64,000 nt of DNA, from positions 4,192,501 through 4,256,500 of the forward strand of contig NZ_CP140155.1 of assembly GCF_034479375.1 (NCBI RefSeq), given 5' to 3'. Below, piece after piece: positions 48,780 to 62,143 of the stretch; positions within the stretch are counted from its first letter, which is position 1, and each line of letters starts with the position of its first letter. This DNA is from Rhodopseudomonas palustris (GTDB lineage Bacteria; Pseudomonadota; Alphaproteobacteria; Rhizobiales; Xanthobacteraceae). A program made the position numbers and the translations under genes. Under the pieces are notes generated by a model, which was not told the origin of the DNA, searched no databases, and was given only the letters and a program-made list of their open reading frames with translations.

Positions 48780-52034
<3,255 letters not shown>

Positions 52035-52794: not shown

Positions 52795-54102
52795 TTACCG
52801 ATACTCTTCCGATTCCCGCAGGCCGCTGATCCACAGCGCCAGGATGGTGACGACGGCGCCGGACAGCAGATAGGCGCCGGACGACAGCAGGCCGAAATCG
52901 GTGGCGAGCAGTAGCGCCACCAGCGGAGCGAAGCCGGCGCCGAACAGCCAGGCGAGGTCTGCGGTCAGCGCCGACGCGGTGTAGCGATAGGCGGTGCGGA
53001 AGCTCGAGGCGATCACGCCGGAGGACTGGCCGAACGACAGCCCGAGCAGGATGAAGCCGAGAATCATATAGACCGTCTCGCCGGCCGGGCCGGCATCGAG
53101 CAATTGCGGAGCGAAGCCGCTGAACACGGCGATCGCGATCGCCGAGCCCAGCAGCAGCGGCTTGCGGCCGATGCGGTCGGCCAGCATGCCGGACACGATG
53201 ATCGCCACCACGCCGAACATCGCGCCGATGGTCTCGATGATCAGGAACCGGACCGGGCTTTCGCGGGTGAACAGGAACACCCAGGACAGCGGGAACACCG
53301 TGACCATATGAAACAGGGCGAAGCTCGCCAGCGGCGCGAACGCACCGATGATGATGTTGCGGCCGTCGTGGCGGACCGTGTCGAGGACGCGGCCGGGCTG
53401 CAATTCGCGGCTTTCGAACAGCGACGAATATTCCGGCGTCACCACCATGCGTAGCCGCGCGAACAGCGCCACGACGTTGATGGCGAAAGCGACGAAGAAC
53501 GGGTAGCGCCAGCCCCAACTGAAGAAATCCTCGGACGACAGATGCCCGGTGAAATAGGCGAACAGGGCACTGGCGACGATCAGTCCGAGCGGTGCGCCAA
53601 GCTGCGGCACCATCGCGTACCAGCCGCGCTGCTCCTTCGGAGCGTTCAGCGCCAGCAGCGACGCCATCCCGTCCCAGGCGCCGCCCCAGGCCAGGCCCTG
53701 CGCCGCGCGCGCCAGCGCCAGCAGCCAGATCGAGGCGGCGCCGATCTGGGAATAGCCGGGCAGGAAGGCGATCGCGACCGTGGCGGTGCCGAGCAGCAGC
53801 ATCGCGCTGATCAGCTTGGCGCTTTTGCCGTAGCGGCGGTCGATCGCCATGAAGATCACGGTGCCGAGCGGCCGCGCGATGAAGGCCACCGCGAAGATCG
53901 CGAACGAATACAGCGTGCCGGTCAGCTCGCTGACGAACGGGAACACCAGCCGCGGAAACACGATCACCGACGCGATCGCATAGACGAAGAAGTCGAAGAA
54001 TTCGGCGGTGCGGCCGATGATGACGCCGATCGCAATCTCGCCGGGTTTGGCCTGCTTGTGCGCCGGATCAGAGCCAAGTCCCGCGGTCGTCGTGTCTGTC
54101 AT
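52795..54102 (-). CDS. MFS transporter, metabolite:proton symporter type
   Basis: 435 residues with about twelve hydrophobic segments. Features of the sugar-porter/metabolite symporter branch: IIGRTAEFFDFFVYAIAS, ARPLGTVIFMAIDRRYGKSAKL (a MFS motif A variant) and SGMLADRIGRKPLLLGSAIA (motif A in the second half). Substrates of relatives include organic acids, betaine or proline; not decidable here. Divergent from cyoA with a palindrome in the spacer. Confidence 0.88.
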   Translation of the reverse strand: MTDTTTAGLGSDPAHKQAKPGEIAIGVIIGRTAEFFDFFVYAIASVIVFPRLVFPFVSELTGTLYSFAIFAVAFIARPLGTVIFMAIDRRYGKSAKLISAMLLLGTATVAIAFLPGYSQIGAASIWLLALARAAQGLAWGGAWDGMASLLALNAPKEQRGWYAMVPQLGAPLGLIVASALFAYFTGHLSSEDFFSWGWRYPFFVAFAINVVALFARLRMVVTPEYSSLFESRELQPGRVLDTVRHDGRNIIIGAFAPLASFALFHMVTVFPLSWVFLFTRESPVRFLIIETIGAMFGVVAIIVSGMLADRIGRKPLLLGSAIAIAVFSGFAPQLLDAGPAGETVYMILGFILLGLSFGQSSGVIASSFRTAYRYTASALTADLAWLFGAGFAPLVALLLATDFGLLSSGAYLLSGAVVTILALWISGLRESEEYR

Positions 54103-54198: not shown

Positions 54199-54221
54199 AC
54201 ATTGGACAAATTGTCCAATGT
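54199..54221. promoter_or_regulatory. Perfect 23-bp palindrome upstream of cyoA
   Basis: ACATTGGACAA, central A, TTGTCCAATGT: eleven-base arms without mismatch, 65 bases before the cyoA start and 96 before the divergent MFS start. Symmetric enough for a dimeric regulator controlling one or both directions. The regulator is unknown. It is not the same as the GntR-side palindrome, although both hold TTG/CAA half-site elements. Confidence 0.7.
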
Positions 54222-54286
54222 CCCGATTGCTGCGCCGCAGCTAGGCCCTGCGTTGCGAGACATTCTCATTCTCAAAGGGCGGAACG

Positions 54287-55444
54287 TTGGCACGTCTCAA
54301 AATCCTGGCTCTGCTACCTTTGGCGGCACTGTTGAGCGGCTGCAACTTCGTGGTGATGGCGCCGGCCGGCGACATTGCCGTGCAACAGCGCGATCTGATC
54401 GTGATCTCGACGGTGCTGATGCTGCTGATCGTTCTGCCGGTGATGGCGCTGACGGTGTGGTTCGCCTGGCGCTACCGGCACTCCAACGACGCGGCGCAAT
54501 ACGATCCCGACTGGGACCATTCGACCGGCCTCGAACTGGTGATCTGGTCGGCGCCGCTGGCGATCATCATTTGTCTCGGGGCGATCACCTGGATGGGCAC
54601 GCATCTGCTCGATCCTTATCGCTCGCTCGACCGCATTGCCCATGATCGGCCGATCGACCGCGCCCAGACCCCGCTCGAGGTCAATGTCGTCGCGCTCGAT
54701 TGGAAGTGGTTGTTCATCTATCCGGAATACGGCGTCGCTTCGCTCAACGAACTCGCCGCGCCGGTCGACCGCCCGATCAATTTCCGGATCACGGCGTCGT
54801 CGGTGATGAATTCGTTCTACATCCCGGCGCTCGCGGGGCAGATCTACGCGATGCCGGGCATGGAGACCAAGCTGCACGCGGTGGTCAATCATGCCGGCAA
54901 GTACAAGGGTTTCTCGGCGAACTACAGCGGCGCCGGCTTCTCCGGCATGCACTTCGCGTTTCACGGGCTCGACGATGCCGGATTCGAGCAATGGATCGCG
55001 CGCATCAAGGCGAGCCCCGACGCGCTGGGCCGCACTGAATATCTGGTGCTGGAGAAGCCCAGCAGCAACGAGCCCGCCCGCGGCTTCGGCAAGGTCGACA
55101 GCGATCTGTATCGCGCCATCCTCAATATGTGTGTCGAGCCGGGCAAGATGTGCATGAGCGAGATGATGGCGATCGACGCGCGCGGCGGCAACGGCATGGC
55201 CGGCCTGCGCAACACGCTGCCGCTCGCCTACGACAAATACGCCCGCCGCGGCACCGCGCTCGGGCCGGAGCCGAGCTTCGTCGCCGGCACCTGCACCGTC
55301 GACGAGCCGCAGGGCCGCGTCACGGCCGCGGTCCGGGACGGCACGCCGCTGCTCGGCGCCGGGCTGAAGCGTCCGGCGCTGCTCACGCCGCTCGGGTCGT
55401 CCACCTCCTTGCCGTTCGGCTCGACGTCGAAATCCGAGTCCTGA
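54287..55444 (+). CDS. cyoA: Ubiquinol oxidase subunit II (CyoA)
   Basis: 385 residues from TTG 54287, with AAAGGGCGG upstream. Lipoprotein signal [19 protein letters not shown], lipidated Cys19. Two membrane helices (about 33-53 and 80-100), then a cupredoxin-like periplasmic domain with [31 protein letters not shown] and [13 protein letters not shown]. CuA ligands are lacking, as expected for a quinol rather than cytochrome c oxidase. First gene of cyoABCD. Confidence 0.95.
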
Positions 55445-55452
55445 GGGATCGC

Positions 55453-57462
55453 ATGCTCACCAATCCTGATATCGTCAAAGCGATCTTCGGCCGGCTGACG
55501 CTGGAGTCGCTGCCGCTGCACGAGCCGATCGTCGTCCTCACCTTCGTCGCGGTTGCGATCGGCGGCGCCGCGCTGGTCGCCGGCCTGACCTACTTCAAGC
55601 TCTGGGGCTATCTGTGGCGCGAGTGGTTCACCACCGTCGACCACAAGCGCATCGGGATCATGTACATGATCCTCGGCATCGTCATGCTGCTGCGCGGCTT
55701 CGCCGACGCGGTGATGATGCGGCTGCAGCAGGCGATGGCCTTCGGCGGCTCCGAGGGTTACCTCAACGCGCATCACTACGATCAGGTGTTCACGGCCCAC
55801 GGCGTGATCATGATCTTCTTCGTGGCGATGCCACTGGTCACCGGACTGATGAACTACGTCGTGCCGCTGCAGATCGGCGCCCGCGACGTGTCGTTCCCGT
55901 TCCTCAACAATTTCAGCTTCTGGATGACCACGGCCGGCGCCGTGCTGGTGATGATCTCGCTGTTCATCGGCGAATTCGCGCGCACGGGCTGGCTGGCCTA
56001 CCCGCCGCTCTCGAACATCGGCTACAGTCCGGACGTCGGGGTCGACTACTATATATGGGCGCTGCAGGTCGCGGGTGTGGGCACGACATTGTCGGGCGTC
56101 AACCTGATCTGCACCATCGTCAAGCTGCGGGCGCCCGGCATGACGATGATGCGGATGCCGATCTTCACTTGGACCTCGCTTTGCACCAACATCCTGATCG
56201 TCGCGTCGTTTCCGGTGCTGACGGTGGTGCTGGCGCTGCTGTCGCTCGATCGCTACGTCGGCACCAATTTCTTCACGAACGACTTCGGCGGCAACCCGAT
56301 GATGTACGTGAACCTGATCTGGATCTGGGGCCATCCGGAGGTCTACATCCTCATCCTGCCGGCCTTCGGGATCTTCTCCGAAGTCACCTCGACGTTCTCC
56401 GGCAAGCGGCTGTTCGGCTACACCTCGATGGTCTACGCCACGGTGGTCATCACCATCCTGTCGTATCTGGTGTGGCTGCACCATTTCTTCACGATGGGCT
56501 CGGGCGCCAGCGTCAACTCCTTCTTCGGCATCACCACGATGATCATCTCGATCCCCACCGGGGCGAAGATGTTCAACTGGCTGTTCACGATGTATCGGGG
56601 CCGTATCCGCTACGACCTGCCGATGATGTGGACGATCGCCTTCATGCTGACTTTCGTGATCGGCGGCATGACCGGCGTGCTGCTCGCGGTGCCGCCGGCC
56701 GATTTCGTGCTGCACAACAGCCTGTTCCTGGTCGCGCACTTTCACAACGTCATCATCGGCGGCGTGGTGTTCGGTGCGTTCGCCGGCATCGCCTACTGGT
56801 TCCCGAAGGCGTTCGGCTTCAAGCTCGACGTGTTCTGGGGCAAGGTCTCGTTCTGGTGCTGGGTGGTCGGCTTCTACCTCGCCTTCATGCCGCTGTATGT
56901 GCTCGGCCTGATGGGCGTCACGCGGCGTCTGCGGGTGTTCGACGATCCGAGCCTACAGATCTGGTTCATTATCGCAGGCTTCGGTGCGTTTCTGGTCGCG
57001 GTCGGCATCGCCGCGTTCCTGATCCAGATCGCCGTCAGCGTGATGCGTCGCGAACAGCTCCGCGACGTCACCGGCGATCCGTGGAACGGTCGCACGCTGG
57101 AATGGGCGACGTCGTCGCCGCCGCCGGACTACAATTTCGCCTTCACGCCGATGGTGCGCGACTCCGATGCGTGGTGGGACATGAAGCGGGCCGGCTACCA
57201 GCGTCCGCTCGAAGGCTTCAAGCCGATCCACATGCCGAGCAACACCGGCACCGGCATCATCCTCGCCGGGCTCAGCACGATGATGGCGTTCGGCCTGATC
57301 TGGTACATCTGGTGGCTGGCGGCGATCTCCTTCATCGCGCTGCTCGCCGTCGCGATCGGCCACACCTTCAACTATCACCGCGACTTCCACATCCCCGCCG
57401 ATGAGGTCGTTCGCGTCGAGGACGAGCGGACCCGTCTGCTCGCCGCGGGAGCCAAGCCATGA
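55453..57462 (+). CDS. cyoB: Ubiquinol oxidase subunit I (CyoB)
   Basis: 669 residues from ATG 55453. Haem-copper oxidase core with [15 protein letters not shown] (CuB/His-Tyr motif), LHHFFTMG and HFHNVIIGG, i.e. all haem and CuB histidines. About 15 membrane helices, as in CyoB. Oxidises ubiquinol, reduces oxygen and pumps protons. Overlaps cyoC by 4 bases (ATGA). Confidence 0.97.
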
Positions 57463-58088
57463 GCGTCGCCGTCGCCACCCCTCAGGCCGCCGAGCCGGTG
57501 TTCCACGTCGTCGACGAGCACGCGCATCCGGAAGGCGCGAGCACGATGCTCGGCTTCTGGATCTATCTGATGAGCGATTGTCTCATCTTCGCGATCCTGT
57601 TCGCGACCTATGGCGTGCTCGGCGGCAACTACGCGGCCGGCCCGGCGCCGAAGGACCTGTTCGATCTGAAGCTGGTCGCTCTCAACACCGCGATGCTGCT
57701 GATGTCGTCGATCACCTACGGCTTCGCGATGCTGACGATGGAGAAGCGCCAGGTCGGCGCGACGCAGATGTGGCTGGCGATCACCGGCCTGTTCGGACTC
57801 GCCTTCCTCGGCATCGAACTCTACGAGTTCCACCACATGATCCATGAAGGTGCGACGCCGCAGCGGAGCGCCTTCCTGTCGTCGTTCTTCACGCTGGTCG
57901 GCACCCACGGCCTGCACGTGACGTTCGGCATCATCTGGCTGGTGACGCTGATGACGCAGGTCGCGCGCAGCGGCCTGATCGAAGCCAACCGCCGCCGGCT
58001 GATGTGCCTCAGCATGTTCTGGCACTTCCTCGACGTGGTGTGGATCGGCGTGTTCACCTTCGTCTATCTGTTGGGAACCTTGCGATGA
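57459..58088 (+). CDS. cyoC: Ubiquinol oxidase subunit III (CyoC)
   Basis: 209 residues with five membrane helices, [23 protein letters not shown] and the subunit III signature [11 protein letters not shown]. Overlaps cyoB and cyoD by 4 bases at each end, which implies coupled translation of the operon. Confidence 0.96.
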
Positions 58089-58477
58089 GCATCAATTCCG
58101 CCCCCGTCGACGCGCACGGCCACGACCACGGCCAGGAGGCCCACGAGGCCGCGCATGCCCATGGTACGTTGAAGAGCTATCTGATCGGCTTCGGACTGTC
58201 GGTGGTTCTCACCGCGATTCCGTTCTGGCTGGTGATGGGCGATGTGCTCGGCAACAAGCAGGCGACCGGCCTCGTGATCATGGCGTTCGCGGCGGTGCAA
58301 ATCGTGGTGCACATGATCTACTTCCTGCACATGACCACCTCCGCCGAGCAGGGCTGGACGATGATGGCGCTGATCTTCACCATCGTGATGGTGGTGATCG
58401 CGCTGGCCGGTTCGCTGTGGGTGATGCACCATCTCACCACCAACATGATGCCGGCCCACGACATGATCCGGCGCTGA
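58085..58477 (+). CDS. cyoD: Ubiquinol oxidase subunit IV (CyoD)
   Basis: 130 residues. His-rich N-terminus (AHGHDHGQEAHEAAHAHG), then three membrane helices including GFGLSVVLTAIPFWLVM, VIMAFAAVQIVVHMIYFLHM and FTIVMVVIALAGSLWVMHH. Needed for CuB assembly or stability in the bo3 oxidase. ATG 58085 overlaps the cyoC stop. Confidence 0.93.
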   Translation: MSINSAPVDAHGHDHGQEAHEAAHAHGTLKSYLIGFGLSVVLTAIPFWLVMGDVLGNKQATGLVIMAFAAVQIVVHMIYFLHMTTSAEQGWTMMALIFTIVMVVIALAGSLWVMHHLTTNMMPAHDMIRR

Positions 58478-58490
58478 GGACGGCGCCATC

Positions 58491-59330
58491 GTGACGCCCG
58501 ACAGCGATCCGGCAACCGGCGGCCGCGAATTCGCGCGGTGGCCCTCGCTGTGGCTGACGATCCCGGCGATCGCCGGCGTGATCGGATTGATCGCGCTCGG
58601 CGTCTGGCAGATCGAGCGGCGCGCCTGGAAACTGGCGCTGATCGACCGGGTCGAGCAGCGCGCTCATGCCGCACCCGCATCGTTGCCCCCCGTGGCGTCC
58701 TGGCCCGCGGTGACCGCCGCCCGCGACGAATATCGACGGGTGACCGTGACCGGCCGCTTCCTGCACGACCGCGAGACGCTGGTGCAGGCCGTCACCGATT
58801 TCGGCGGCGGATTCTGGGTGATCACGCCGCTGCACGCCGACGACGGCCGCAACGTTCTGATCAATCGCGGATACGTTCGGCCAGACCAGCGGGACCGTGC
58901 GACCCGACGGGACGGCGAGCCGTCCGGCGAGGTCACGGTTAACGGTCTGTTACGCGTGACGGAACCCGGCGGTGGCTTCCTGCGCCACAACGACCCCGCC
59001 GCCGACCGCTGGTATTCGCGCGATGTCGCGGCGATCGCGCAGACGCGAAGCGTCGAGAATATCGCGCCTTTCTTCATCGACGCCGACGCTTCGCTCGACG
59101 CCGACGGGCAGCCGATTGGCGGACTGACCGTGATCCGGTTTCCCAACAACCACTTGATCTATGCGCTCACGTGGTTTTGCCTGGCATTTATGCTGGCGGG
59201 CTGGCTTGGTGTCGTCGTCTTCGGCGGCAGATTTCCCCGCCGCAAGGGCGGCGGCCGCGGACCGGGCGAAGCGGCGCATTCCGCCCTCGTAACAGGATCA
59301 CATGCTGGACCGATCTCCGGGCATCGCTGA
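58491..59330 (+). CDS. SURF1 family cytochrome oxidase biogenesis protein
   Basis: 279 residues from GTG 58491. Typical SURF1 layout: N-terminal membrane helix IAGVIGLIALGVWQIERRAWK, conserved GRFLHDRETLV, GGFWVITPL and VLINRGYV, and a C-terminal helix LIYALTWFCLAFMLAGWLG. Assists haem a/o insertion into haem-copper oxidases. It follows cyoD by 13 bases and overlaps the kinase start by 29 bases. Confidence 0.93.
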   Translation: MTPDSDPATGGREFARWPSLWLTIPAIAGVIGLIALGVWQIERRAWKLALIDRVEQRAHAAPASLPPVASWPAVTAARDEYRRVTVTGRFLHDRETLVQAVTDFGGGFWVITPLHADDGRNVLINRGYVRPDQRDRATRRDGEPSGEVTVNGLLRVTEPGGGFLRHNDPAADRWYSRDVAAIAQTRSVENIAPFFIDADASLDADGQPIGGLTVIRFPNNHLIYALTWFCLAFMLAGWLGVVVFGGRFPRRKGGGRGPGEAAHSALVTGSHAGPISGHR

Positions 59331-60714
59331 CGACAAGGACGGCTGGACGTTGCGGGACAATGCGTCCTGGCCCGCTCCCGGCGGCCAGCCCGGTGCGCCT
59401 CGCCCGAGCGATGGCGGCACACCTCTGCCGATCGACGCTTCGCCCGCCGACGATGCGACCGACCGCAAGAACATGGCGCTGCTGATCCAGCTCCGCTGGA
59501 CCGCGGTGATCGGGCAGATCGTCACCATCGGGGCGGTGCATTCGTGGCTCGGTGCCCCGCTGCCGATCGTACCGATGGGCGCCGTCGTGCTCGGGCTGGT
59601 CGCGCTCAACATCGCCAGCCTGGCGTGGATGCGCTATCGCATCGCGATCAGCAATCGCGATCTGCTGGTCGCGCTGATCCTCGATGTCGTCGCGCTGACG
59701 GCTCTGCTCTATCTCAGCGGCGGCATCACCAATCCGTTCACATCGCTGTATCTGCTGCAGGTGACGCTCGGCGCCGTGCTGCTCGACAGCCGTTCGAGCT
59801 GGTCACTGGTGGCGGTCGTGTTCACCGCGTTCCTCTGGCTGACCGAAGCGTCGCGCCCGCTGGTGCTGCCGCCGGCCGCGGGCGACCCGGTCAATCTGGC
59901 CGTCGCCGGCATGCTGATCGGCTTCGCGCTGAACGCGGTGCTGCTGGTGGTGTTCGTCACGCGAATTCATCGCAATCTGCGCGAACGCGACGCGCATCTG
60001 GCGGCGTTGCGTCAGCACGCCGCCGAGCAGGACCACATCGTGCGGATGGGTCTGCTCGCCTCCGGCGCCGCGCATGAGCTCGGCACGCCGCTGGCGTCGG
60101 TCTCGGTCATTCTCAGCGACTGGCGCCGGATGCCGCAGATCACGGCCGATCGCGAACTCGCCGAAGACCTCACCGAAATGGAGACGGCGCTGAAGCGCTG
60201 CCAATCGATCGTGACCGGGATTCTGGTTTCGGCCGGCGAGGCGCGCGGCGAGGGGTCGTCGCCGACCACGGTGTCGGCGTTTCTGTCGGCGCTCGTCGAG
60301 GAATGGCAGAATGCGCGCTGCAAGACGACGCTGCACCTCGTCAACGCGTTCGGGGAAGACCTGCCGATCGTTTCCGACGTGACGCTGAAGCAGGCGATTT
60401 TCAACGTGCTGGACAATGCCTTCGAGGTTTCGCGCGACTGGATCGAGCTGTTCGCCGAACGCGACGGCGACAATCTGGTGCTGTCGATCAGCGATCGCGG
60501 TCCCGGCTTTCCGAAGGACATGCTGACGCAGATCGGCAAGCCGTATCAGTCGAGCAAGGGCCGGGCCGGAGGCGGTCTCGGCCTGTTCCTGGTGATGAAT
60601 GTGGTGCGCAAGCTCGGCGGCTCGATGACGGCCGAAAACCTCCGCAACCGCGGCGCCAAGGTCAAGCTGGTGCTGCCGCTCTCGACGCTGGCGATCGGAG
60701 ACCAATTTGATTGA
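59302..60714 (+). CDS. RegB/PrrB/RoxS-family redox sensor histidine kinase
   Basis: 470 residues. An N-terminal soluble stretch, about six membrane helices (75-225) with the quinone-binding motif GGITNPF at 140-146, H-box AAHELGTPLAS with phospho-acceptor His258, and N-, G1-, G2-boxes (NVLDNAFEVS, SDRGPGFP, GGLGLFLVM). Cys300, 42 residues after the His, fits the redox-active Cys of RegB. This kinase family senses the ubiquinone pool and Cys redox state and controls oxidase and photosynthesis genes. It overlaps the regulator gene by 8 bases. Whether it is the main RegB orthologue or a paralogue is not decidable. Confidence 0.92.
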   Translation: MLDRSPGIADDKDGWTLRDNASWPAPGGQPGAPRPSDGGTPLPIDASPADDATDRKNMALLIQLRWTAVIGQIVTIGAVHSWLGAPLPIVPMGAVVLGLVALNIASLAWMRYRIAISNRDLLVALILDVVALTALLYLSGGITNPFTSLYLLQVTLGAVLLDSRSSWSLVAVVFTAFLWLTEASRPLVLPPAAGDPVNLAVAGMLIGFALNAVLLVVFVTRIHRNLRERDAHLAALRQHAAEQDHIVRMGLLASGAAHELGTPLASVSVILSDWRRMPQITADRELAEDLTEMETALKRCQSIVTGILVSAGEARGEGSSPTTVSAFLSALVEEWQNARCKTTLHLVNAFGEDLPIVSDVTLKQAIFNVLDNAFEVSRDWIELFAERDGDNLVLSISDRGPGFPKDMLTQIGKPYQSSKGRAGGGLGLFLVMNVVRKLGGSMTAENLRNRGAKVKLVLPLSTLAIGDQFD

Positions 60715-61240
60715 AGAACGCTCGTTGATCGTCGTCGAGGACGACGCCGGATTCGCCCGCACGCTGAAACGCTCGTTCGAGCGTCGCGGCTACGAAGTCG
60801 TGCACGCCTCGACCATCGACGAGGTGCGCGACGCGTTGGACGAGCGTTCGTTCGGCTACGCCGTGGTCGACCTCAAACTCGGCGGCGCCTCTGGGCTCGC
60901 CTGCGTCGAACTGCTGCACGCTCAGGACCCGGAGATGCTGATCGTCGTCCTGACCGGCTTCGCCAGCATCGCCACCGCGGTCGAGGCGATCAAGCTCGGC
61001 GCCTGCCACTACCTCGCCAAGCCGTCGAACACCGACGACATCGAGGCCGCGTTCCGCAAGGCCGAGGGCAACGCCGACATCGCGCTGGCGAGCCAGCCGA
61101 CCTCGATCAAGACGCTGGAATGGGAACGCATCCACCAGACCCTGATCGAAAGCGAGTTCAACATCTCCGAAGCCGCGCGGCGGCTCGGCATGCATCGCCG
61201 GACCCTGGCGCGCAAGCTCGAAAAGCGGCAGGTCAGGTAG
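60707..61240 (+). CDS. RegA/ActR/RoxR-family response regulator
   Basis: 177 residues from TTG 60707, with GGAG 6 bases upstream. Receiver domain with E11/D12/D13, phospho-acceptor Asp55 (VVDLKLGG), LTGFASIATAVEAIKLGA and Lys in YLAKPSN; then a Fis-type HTH with FNISEAARRLGMHRRTLARKL, the RegA-family DNA recognition segment. Partner of the kinase just upstream. The helix-turn-helix is close to but not identical to that of classical RegA (NVSETARRLNMHRRTLQR in memory of the family), supporting a RegA/RoxR relative. Confidence 0.92.
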   Translation: MIEERSLIVVEDDAGFARTLKRSFERRGYEVVHASTIDEVRDALDERSFGYAVVDLKLGGASGLACVELLHAQDPEMLIVVLTGFASIATAVEAIKLGACHYLAKPSNTDDIEAAFRKAEGNADIALASQPTSIKTLEWERIHQTLIESEFNISEAARRLGMHRRTLARKLEKRQVR

Positions 61241-61263: not shown

Positions 61264-62067
61264 TCAGGCTGTCCGGTCGCTGCCCGCAATGGTCGGGGGC
61301 GCCGCGCCGGTCTCATCGACATGCGCCAGCGCGCTGAGGTCGAAGGCCTCGCCGCGGATCTGCGAGAGCGTTGCCAGCGCGCGGTCGCGGTCGCCTTCCA
61401 GCAATTCGCCGAGATGGGTCACGGCCGCATTCGGCCGGCGCTGCCGGATCGCCTTCAGCGTCGCCGCCATCAGGTCGGCGCTGAGCCGCCGAATCTCCGG
61501 CGTCTGATAGTCCAGCGGCGACTTCCAGATCGTCGTCCACACGGTCTGATCGGCGAGGTCGGTGAGCAGTTCGACCAGCAACTGATTGCCGGAGCCGCGC
61601 GCAATGGTCTTGACCGCCCGCGTCGTGGTCCGCGCGAAGGCGATCGGATCGTCGGGCTCGACCTGCGCCTTCAATTCCGCGCAGCGTCGCGCGAGCGTGT
61701 CGATGTAGCTCTCGACCGGCGTGGTCGCCATGGTCCGCACCGCCAGCATCGACAGCGCGGTGCGGACGTTGAACAGATCGGCGACTGATTTCAGCGACAC
61801 CGGCTTGATGTAGGCGCCGCGCCGCGGCAGCAATTCGACCAGCCGGCGACGTTCGAGAATCCGAATCGCTTCGCGGATCGGCCCGCGACTGACGCCGAAG
61901 TCGCGCGCCAGATCGAGTTCGACGAGGCGCTCGCCCGCCTTGCGTCGGCCCGAGACGATCTCGGCGCCGAGTTCTTCGGCGACCTGGTCCGGCAGCGTGC
62001 GCGGCGCGAACCGCCGCTCGTGGGTGCCGTCACTCCCGGTCGCCGGCCTGCGATACGTCGCTGCCAC
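61264..62067 (-). CDS. GntR family transcriptional regulator (FadR/FCD-type)
   Basis: 267 residues from GTG 62067, whose GGGGGA lies 4 bases upstream; GTG 62082 or 62100 and TTG 62118 are other starts. Winged HTH: LDLARDFGVSRGPIREAIRILERRRLVELLPRRGAYI at about 60-95. The C-terminal half is an all-helical FCD-like ligand-binding domain. Probably controls the divergent peptide-type ABC transporter genes and itself through the palindrome at 62118-62143. Ligand unknown. Confidence 0.88.
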   Translation of the reverse strand: MAATYRRPATGSDGTHERRFAPRTLPDQVAEELGAEIVSGRRKAGERLVELDLARDFGVSRGPIREAIRILERRRLVELLPRRGAYIKPVSLKSVADLFNVRTALSMLAVRTMATTPVESYIDTLARRCAELKAQVEPDDPIAFARTTTRAVKTIARGSGNQLLVELLTDLADQTVWTTIWKSPLDYQTPEIRRLSADLMAATLKAIRQRRPNAAVTHLGELLEGDRDRALATLSQIRGEAFDLSALAHVDETGAAPPTIAGSDRTA

Positions 62068-62117
62068 GATGTCCCCCGCCACTCTCGTCTCTTCCGCCAC
62101 GCGGACAAAGTAGTCCA

Positions 62118-62143
62118 ATTGTCAATTGTTGACAATTGACAAT
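62118..62143. promoter_or_regulatory. Perfect operator-like palindrome before the GntR gene
   Basis: ATTGTCAATTG (62118-62128), spacer TTGA, CAATTGACAAT (62133-62143): eleven-base arms without mismatch. The TTGTCAA/TTGACAA halves and symmetric shape suit a GntR dimer. It sits between the GntR gene and the divergent ABC ATPase gene, 248 bases from the latter. The rest of the spacer up to 62390 has no recognisable gene. Confidence 0.75.

Follow-up and report, generated by a model that had tools for sequence, protein, structure and literature searches.

The 64,000-nucleotide stretch of Rhodopseudomonas palustris DNA analysed here (NCBI RefSeq assembly GCF_034479375.1, contig NZ_CP140155.1, positions 4,192,501 to 4,256,500 of the forward strand), referred to below as the window, carries the genes cyoABCD for a bo3-type quinol oxidase, a gene for a SURF1-family assembly protein, and the genes for a RegB-like sensor kinase and a RegA-like response regulator, all arranged head to tail. 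We propose, with a probability of about three in four, that this pair is a paralogue of RegB/RegA (RegBA) dedicated to the one oxidase operon and activating it from one operator, a palindrome upstream of cyoA. The proposal is built from sequence comparison, namely the anatomy of the operon, the separate clade of the pair, its linkage to cyo, the palindrome itself, its single occurrence in the genome, its fixed spacing to a promoter element and its association with the pair. These observations lead us to infer the following scheme, which includes co-transcription of the genes in this strain, binding of the palindrome by the regulator, a positive rather than a negative effect, the nature of the signal, and feedback. 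The oxidase and SURF1 would be co-transcribed with their own RegB/RegA-type system as one operon; the kinase would read the redox state of quinone or of a thiol; and the regulator would have a single palindrome of the genome, TTGGACAAATTGTCCAA, as its binding site. This site, near −44, would replace the −35 element, and the regulator would most likely activate transcription of cyoA. Build-up of quinol would then raise the amounts of both the oxidase and its sensor until the pool had returned to the oxidised state, the oxidase draining the signal to which its sensor responds.

Organization of the oxidase operon

The source sequence is a single-contig genome of 5.3 Mb. All four CyoABCD subunits exceeded the NCBIfam equivalog cut-offs, identifying a cytochrome bo3 quinol oxidase, and the order cyoA-B-C-D-SURF1-kinase-regulator is that of a cyoABCD-surf1-regBA type operon. 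Gaps of 8 and 13 bases separate cyoA from cyoB and cyoD from SURF1, while the remaining genes overlap, by 4 bases at cyoB/cyoC and again at cyoC/cyoD, by 29 at SURF1/kinase and by 8 at kinase/regulator. The head-to-tail array described in an earlier note on this DNA, made from the letters alone, is thus borne out by gene calls and profile matches. A terminator between cyoD and SURF1, which that note had named as evidence against a single unit, was looked for, and no terminator-like site was found there or between the other genes of the array; the three terminator-like matches in the array region all lie inside genes, against a mean of 3.8 in shuffled sequences. The arrangement also includes, as a conserved part absent from the earlier note, a gene of the major facilitator superfamily (MFS) transcribed divergently from cyoA. 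Over 415 amino acids its product shares 35% identity with E. coli YhjE, which itself scores 510 on the profile matched by the window protein, TIGR00883 (Table 1).

The pair belongs to a clade separate from canonical RegBA

The window kinase has an HATPase_c domain and a PilS-like domain of six transmembrane segments, and the regulator a receiver domain with Asp55 and a Fis-type helix-turn-helix (HTH) with the core MHRRTL. The kinase residues GGITNPF (140–146), His258 and Cys300 were all found at the positions given earlier. In the alignment, GG..NPF, the H-box histidine and the cysteine are unvarying in 40 of 40 kinase rows of the family, and they are also kept in 14 of 14 comparison rows, among which the divergent protein of genome G116 is counted twice. 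From the literature and general knowledge, we take GGxxNPF to be the quinone site and the conserved cysteine to be the redox cysteine. The helix letters of the regulator, [M/L]HRRTL, are as in RegA; HRRTL is common to all comparison rows, and the adjacent positions differ.

The best-matching models for the two proteins were ActS/PrrB/RegB (NF033792) and ActR/PrrA/RegA (NF033791), though both scores were below the cut-offs (225 versus 350 bits and 162 versus 250 bits), and canonical identity was rejected for both, in the case of the kinase also by the tree. When 40 window-type kinases and the divergent row of G116 were compared with 12 RegB-type rows, the branch dividing the two groups measured 3.86 changes per column and had 100/100 support, and the canonical RegB of the same genome fell on the RegB-type side; four of the 12 RegB-type rows (L111, L039, L045 and L046) are over-cut-off matches to NF033792, the other eight are unscored, and the trees were built without named reference RegB, PrrB, ActS, RegS or RoxS. 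In a wider tree the kinases of cyd type (two from Thioclava, with those of G116 and G491) formed one clade (97/87) beside the cyo-type clade (76/91), both distant from canonical RegB. The nearest named relative of the kinase is that of Rhodopseudomonas palustris HaA2, at 95% identity over 91% of the query. By the criterion of sequence, the window pair is a distinct paralogous clade and not plain RegBA.

At genome positions 3742660–3744670, about half a megabase from the window, lie the genes for a canonical pair, RegB scoring 571 bits and RegA 322 bits, so that the window kinase is not the sole RegB relative of this genome; the suggestion in the earlier note of a possible second, oxidase-dedicated system gains support here. 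Canonical RegB over its cut-off was found in 26 of the 41 genomes that bear a window-type kinase (defined below). An alternative view is that the pair is a redundant RegBA feeding the global RegA regulon, placed at cyo for aerobic co-expression, with the palindrome belonging to another regulator. The RegA helix letters retained by the regulator agree with this view, as does the lack, in 15 of the 41 genomes, of any further RegB-family kinase at E≤1e-45 (eleven lie outside the window's class and four belong to family f56). In addition, the authors of a study of Sphingopyxis, in the part of the report available, refer to the two genes as regBA and raise the idea that their targets include a second tier (PMC7713065). 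We nevertheless consider redundancy distinctly unlikely, in view of the distribution of the palindrome described below.

Linkage of the kinase to cyo across Proteobacteria

Two samples of genomes were examined. The order-wide sample of 121 genomes included 14 with a kinase at least 50% identical to that of the window, and a gap in identity lay below 50%, the next kinase being 35% identical and the canonical ones 29–32%. The phylum-wide sample of 398 genomes included 34 with a kinase at E≤1e-70. Both samples combined gave 41 kinase-bearing genomes, the window's own included (kinase at least 48% identical), and the other 40 neighbourhoods were read. In 35 of the 41, counting the window and L074, cyoABCD-SURF1 is followed immediately by the genes for kinase and regulator, and the MFS gene is divergent from cyoA in 34 of these 35 arrays, again including the window. 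In three others (L076, L080 and L096) the pair is in the same cluster, on the far side of the MFS gene, and in G435 it is located 31 kb from cyo, with the palindrome still at cyoA. CyoB at E≤1e-290 was detected in 114 of the 398 genomes of the phylum-wide sample and in 32 of the 34 that bear the kinase.

The best 80 of 591 kinase relatives in named genomes were also examined; these were picked as nearest to a query that itself came from outside the window's class, and the set leans to Burkholderiales for that reason. It includes Variovorax, Cupriavidus, Massilia, Janthinobacterium, Herbaspirillum, Achromobacter, Alcanivorax and Luteimonas. The order cyoD-SURF1-kinase was present in 80 of 80, and a divergent MFS gene in all 74 loci with cyoA in view, 73 of which are complete to the regulator (L246 stops at a contig edge). 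The linkage spans Alpha-, Beta- and Gammaproteobacteria. Loss of the linkage in relatives, the outcome that the earlier note had set against its reading, was looked for, and the linkage proved to be kept across classes. At one locus, L109 of G182, a genome in which bo3 cyo was undetected, the kinase frame contains three stops beside an open regulator frame, perhaps because the sensor decayed once the oxidase had been lost.

The palindrome upstream of cyoA accompanies the kinase

The palindrome is exact, consisting of two 11-nucleotide arms and a 1-nucleotide spacer. It is the sole match in the window at up to three mismatches (0 expected), and ATTGGACAAATTGTCCAAT was found once in the 5.3 Mb genome at up to two mismatches. 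The cyoA upstream regions of kinase-bearing genomes numbered 39 (37 loci, the window, and L156 of G435); the core was present with at least 8 of its 10 bases in all 39 and with at least 9 in 37. In the named-genome set, which was not used to define the palindrome, at least 9 of the 10 core bases were present in 71 of 74 loci, 8 in two and 7 in one. Within the window's genus the exact palindrome was detected in 7 of 16 genomes, each time between the MFS gene and cyoA.

Eighty whole genomes were scanned for the strict form GGACAAANNGTCCAAT, 41 with the kinase and 39 without this kinase type; among the latter, G116 and G491 hold a divergent kinase (35% and 34% identical) and G325 lacks CyoB at the threshold used. 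The strict form was present in 34 of the 41 kinase genomes, in single copy in 32 of these 34, versus 0 of the 39 others, and the reversed control gave one match. Of the 36 strict sites 34 are the cyoA site, and among the seven kinase genomes without the strict form, five have variants at the same place and two have no detected bo3 cyo. The extra matches in G035 and G069, one between a kinase gene and an MFS gene and one within a ParA-like gene (by eye), look like chance and were rejected as targets, since about four chance matches are expected in 80 genomes for 14 fixed bases.

As controls, 39 cyo loci without a linked kinase were taken, chosen rather than drawn at random (20 of 21 such cyoB genes plus 19 picked loci, the latter favouring Alphaproteobacteria). 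In fifteen of these the MFS gene, cyoABCD and SURF1 are consecutive; the MFS gene is divergent in 12 and co-directional in three. A palindrome core of at least 9/10 was absent from all 15, and canonical RegB is present in the genomes of 12. For a redundant RegBA with the palindrome belonging to another regulator, these results are difficult, since the strict palindrome is confined to genomes with the pair, is mostly single there, is missing from loci of the same gene content, and is met again, together with the pair, at operons for cyd and cytochrome c (see below). The palindrome, proposed in the earlier note as a possible site of control, is now the best-supported part of that reading, and is probably the operator of the regulator.

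Predicted promoter architecture and probable mode of regulation

When the 39 regions were aligned on the palindrome, a conserved TA was observed at +32/+33 from its centre (weighted frequencies 0.85 and 0.83). Beyond the palindrome flank, just one more position, a G at +29 (0.62), exceeded the display limit. The TA was present in 59 of the 71 named-genome loci with a core of at least 9/10. If this TA marks the beginning of the −10 element, the centre of the palindrome falls near −44, over the place of the −35 element, and transcription is predicted to start near 54254. Such a position is close to that of class II activators. There is no mirror TA towards the MFS gene, and the palindrome therefore seems to serve cyoA first. 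The dyad GGAC-N5-GTCC retains the GRC-N5-GNC core, which is common to published PrrA and RegR consensus sites (PMC5506826, from the part available), and its flanking bases are changed relative to these consensus sequences.

The same location could also be used for repression, whereby the regulator bound over the −35 element would shut the oxidase off when the quinone pool is oxidised. By its spacing the palindrome overlaps the −35 place, a position open to repressors too, and G182, which lacks a detected bo3 cyo, has an open regulator frame next to a kinase frame interrupted by stops. Against repression, no recognisable −35 element is kept, and the fixed spacing to TA resembles that of class II activator sites. 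Published work, as far as the parts available go, also points to activation: in A. ferrooxidans a set of promoters that included cyo was tested, and at most of them RegA binds on the upstream side of the −35 or −24 box (PMC5506826), and in another genus cyoABCD is under positive control by a RegA homologue (PMC8191878). We thus regard repression as unlikely, and prefer activation of cyoA by the regulator.

By analogy with Sphingopyxis, an Fnr box was also considered before the window cyoA or kinase gene, and none was found there by a scan with TTGATNNNNATCAA at up to two mismatches. Over the whole window such Fnr-box-like matches are over-represented (25 versus 10.8 expected, at the same tolerance). 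At two other loci, L101 and L106, Fnr/Crp-like dyads of the TTGATC type lie near the palindrome upstream of cyoA, and in some lineages oxygen control may be layered on redox control.

Table 1. Genes and predicted control elements of the cyo region (coordinates counted from the first base of the window).
Feature	Coordinates	Strand	Evidence or remark
MFS transporter, metabolite:H+ symporter type, YhjE-like	52795..54102	-	TIGR00883, 258 bits (below 443 cut-off)
Palindrome ACATTGGACAA-A-TTGTCCAATGT, predicted operator of the regulator	54199..54221	.	Centre 54210
Conserved TA, predicted start of −10 element	54242..54243	+	+32/+33 from palindrome centre
cyoA, quinol oxidase subunit II	54287..55444	+	TTG start; TIGR01433, 345 bits (cut-off 266)
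cyoB, quinol oxidase subunit I	55453..57462	+	TIGR02843, 1129 bits (cut-off 1020)
cyoC, subunit III	57459..58088	+	TIGR02842, 268 bits (cut-off 224)
cyoD, subunit IV	58085..58477	+	TIGR02847, 110 bits (cut-off 81)
SURF1-family oxidase assembly protein	58491..59330	+	GTG start; PF02104, 189 bits
RegB-like sensor histidine kinase, oxidase-linked clade	59302..60714	+	NF033792, 225 bits; trees; residues
RegA-like response regulator	60707..61240	+	TTG start; NF033791, 162 bits; alignment; Asp55

The pair and the palindrome at other operons and on plasmids

Operons other than cyo, in which the pair is found with the palindrome, provide what we see as the strongest evidence that the palindrome belongs to this regulator. 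Thioclava plasmids have the pair, with a kinase of about 37% identity, behind cydABDC; of five such loci listed, four were read, and in all four cydA is preceded by the palindrome and its TA at +32/+33. In Methylosinus sp. C49 (L253, plasmid pMSC49c, 5368–15784) the pair ends a cytochrome c operon beside genes for methanobactin, a copper chelator, and a palindrome with a 9/10 core lies before the first gene, with the TA one base further out. In G077 the pair is beside ccoNOPG, and a variant site (9/10) is found before the kinase with the TA in place. In G116 the divergent kinase is located between a cytochrome c gene with an unassigned open reading frame and cydAB, the regulator lying beyond cydAB on the opposite strand; palindromes are present before the cytochrome gene and before cydA, without the TA spacing. 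No cyd genes were seen beside the pair of G491. The divergent pairs of G116 and G491 are unlinked, and the cyoA promoters of both genomes have altered dyads at the same distance from TA, GTGAC-N5-GTCGT in G116 (L122) and GCGAC-N5-GTCGC in G491 (L152). Co-change of regulator and operator, or takeover by canonical RegA, is possible there. Nine of 23 plasmid records were examined, and plasmids of Sphingomonas parapaucimobilis, Azospirillum brasilense, Palleronia and Phyllobacterium carry cyo, SURF1, kinase, regulator, palindrome and TA (for Phyllobacterium, in which cyoA is unannotated, the region was placed from cyoB).

These operons bear on a further explanation, in which the palindrome is bound by a different factor, for example of Crp/Fnr, metal or GntR type, and accompanies the kinase only by shared ancestry of the cyo cluster. 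Such an origin is made conceivable by the cyoB tree, on which the kinase was gained or lost independently only two or three times, and by the Fnr/Crp-like dyads of L101 and L106. The palindrome, however, stands before cydA at the same spacing and before the cytochrome c operon with the TA one base further, where only the kinase and the regulator are shared with the genes of the window, and the GntR gene next to the window array is not kept as a neighbour in relatives. We judge a different factor to be highly unlikely, and retain the RegA-like regulator as the probable ligand of the palindrome.

An extension of the proposal, which in our estimate is evenly balanced, is that the RegBA paralogue and its single sharp operator make up a portable control cassette, in which kinase, operator and promoter spacing move as one and act as a private redox thermostat. 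Such a cassette would be coupled most often to the bo3 oxidase (cyoABCD-SURF1), and elsewhere to the bd oxidases of Thioclava (cydABDC) and G116 (cydAB), to the cytochrome c operon of Methylosinus and to a cbb3 neighbourhood in G077, and in many genomes it would sit beside the global RegBA.

Evidence weighed against a dedicated activator

Several observations weigh against the proposal that the pair activates the operon from this palindrome. Concerning the site, no sigma-70 consensus was found, and the 8/10 sites of L073 and L103 are no better than those in shuffles of their own regions (p about 0.2). A 9/10 core was also reached in three of the 39 kinase-lacking cyo loci, all among the 24 outside the same-gene group and without the TA spacing, and random 400-bp stretches, from a pool that includes true sites, reached 9/10 in 64 of 3000 draws, 20 of them with TA. 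In the three same-gene controls where the MFS gene runs with cyo, the region upstream of cyoA may not be a promoter. Concerning the association, two or three independent gains or losses on the cyoB tree are too few for the match between palindrome and kinase across cyo loci to reach significance in an independent-pairs test, and the argument for that reason leans also on the non-homologous operons. Bo3 cyo was undetected at the thresholds used in two of the 41 kinase genomes (G077 and G182), and the G182 locus shows no matching palindrome. Because 15 of the 41 lack canonical RegB, the description as a second system fails to hold everywhere. Concerning the signal, a RegB without the quinone-binding domain still supported growth in Methylomonas (PMC13274454, from the part available), and the motif is accordingly no proof of quinone sensing.

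Neighbouring genes of the window

A gene for a GntR/FCD regulator (61264–62118, minus strand) is located right after the array and is not a conserved neighbour in relatives. At its start, at 62118–62143, is another palindrome, ATTGTCAATTGT / ACAATTGACAAT, which is perhaps autoregulatory. Upstream of the MFS gene, at 48825–52034 on the plus strand, is a long gene for an RND-type efflux pump (by eye), possibly metal-exporting, followed by a gene for a small secreted-looking protein without a Pfam match. The pump gene is perhaps a metal-efflux gene near a heme-copper oxidase.

Relation to known systems

The likeness of the window pair to RegB/RegA (PrrB/PrrA, ActS/ActR and RegS/RegR) lies in the domain plan, the GGxxNPF motif, the H-box, the redox cysteine, and the receiver joined to a Fis-type HTH with the HRRTL helix, and extends to the operator, which shares the core of the PrrA/RegR consensus (PMC5506826). 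The differences are that the window pair lies in an oxidase operon, in a clade separated at 100/100 and below both cut-offs, and that it is found with one sharp palindrome, mostly once per genome, whereas RegA has many degenerate sites.

The gene order and the idea of autoregulation are already known, having been printed for Sphingopyxis granuli TFA. The operon of that strain, written cyoABCDsurF1regBA, has the same gene order as the window, is treated as one operon and is induced without oxygen; an internal Fnr site precedes regB, and activation of the entire operon by RegBA is put forward by the authors as a possibility. In the available part of that report the pair is taken as ordinary RegBA and no operator is reported before cyoA (PMC7713065). 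Sphingomonas parapaucimobilis, a member of the Sphingomonadaceae, has both the gene order and the palindrome. The cyo operon of plant-growth-promoting Caulobacter likewise includes SURF1, a sensor kinase and its receptor, and is conserved among those strains; family assignment, control site and kinase test are not given in the part of the paper available (PMC8016251). YhjE-like MFS genes are described beside cyoABCD, mostly in opposite orientation as in the window, and E. coli YhjE is needed for active bo3 oxidase; the kinase pair is untreated in the available part of that report (PMC10588857). Our searches of the open-licence literature gave no description of the separate clade, of the single operator or of its mobility between oxidase operons.

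Regulators of the RegA type are hard to study because many genes are controlled from degenerate sites, and one study, in the part available, could not deduce a RegA motif (PMC5506826). The system described here would be one of RegBA type that apparently has a single target and a single clean operator, and its hosts are easy to grow; in so minimal a setting, the signal sensed by RegB and the reading of DNA by RegA-type regulators become directly testable. If the proposed loop is true, the level of a quinol oxidase would be set by a private sensor of the very pool that the oxidase drains, and the same cassette would have been reused for bd and cytochrome c operons.

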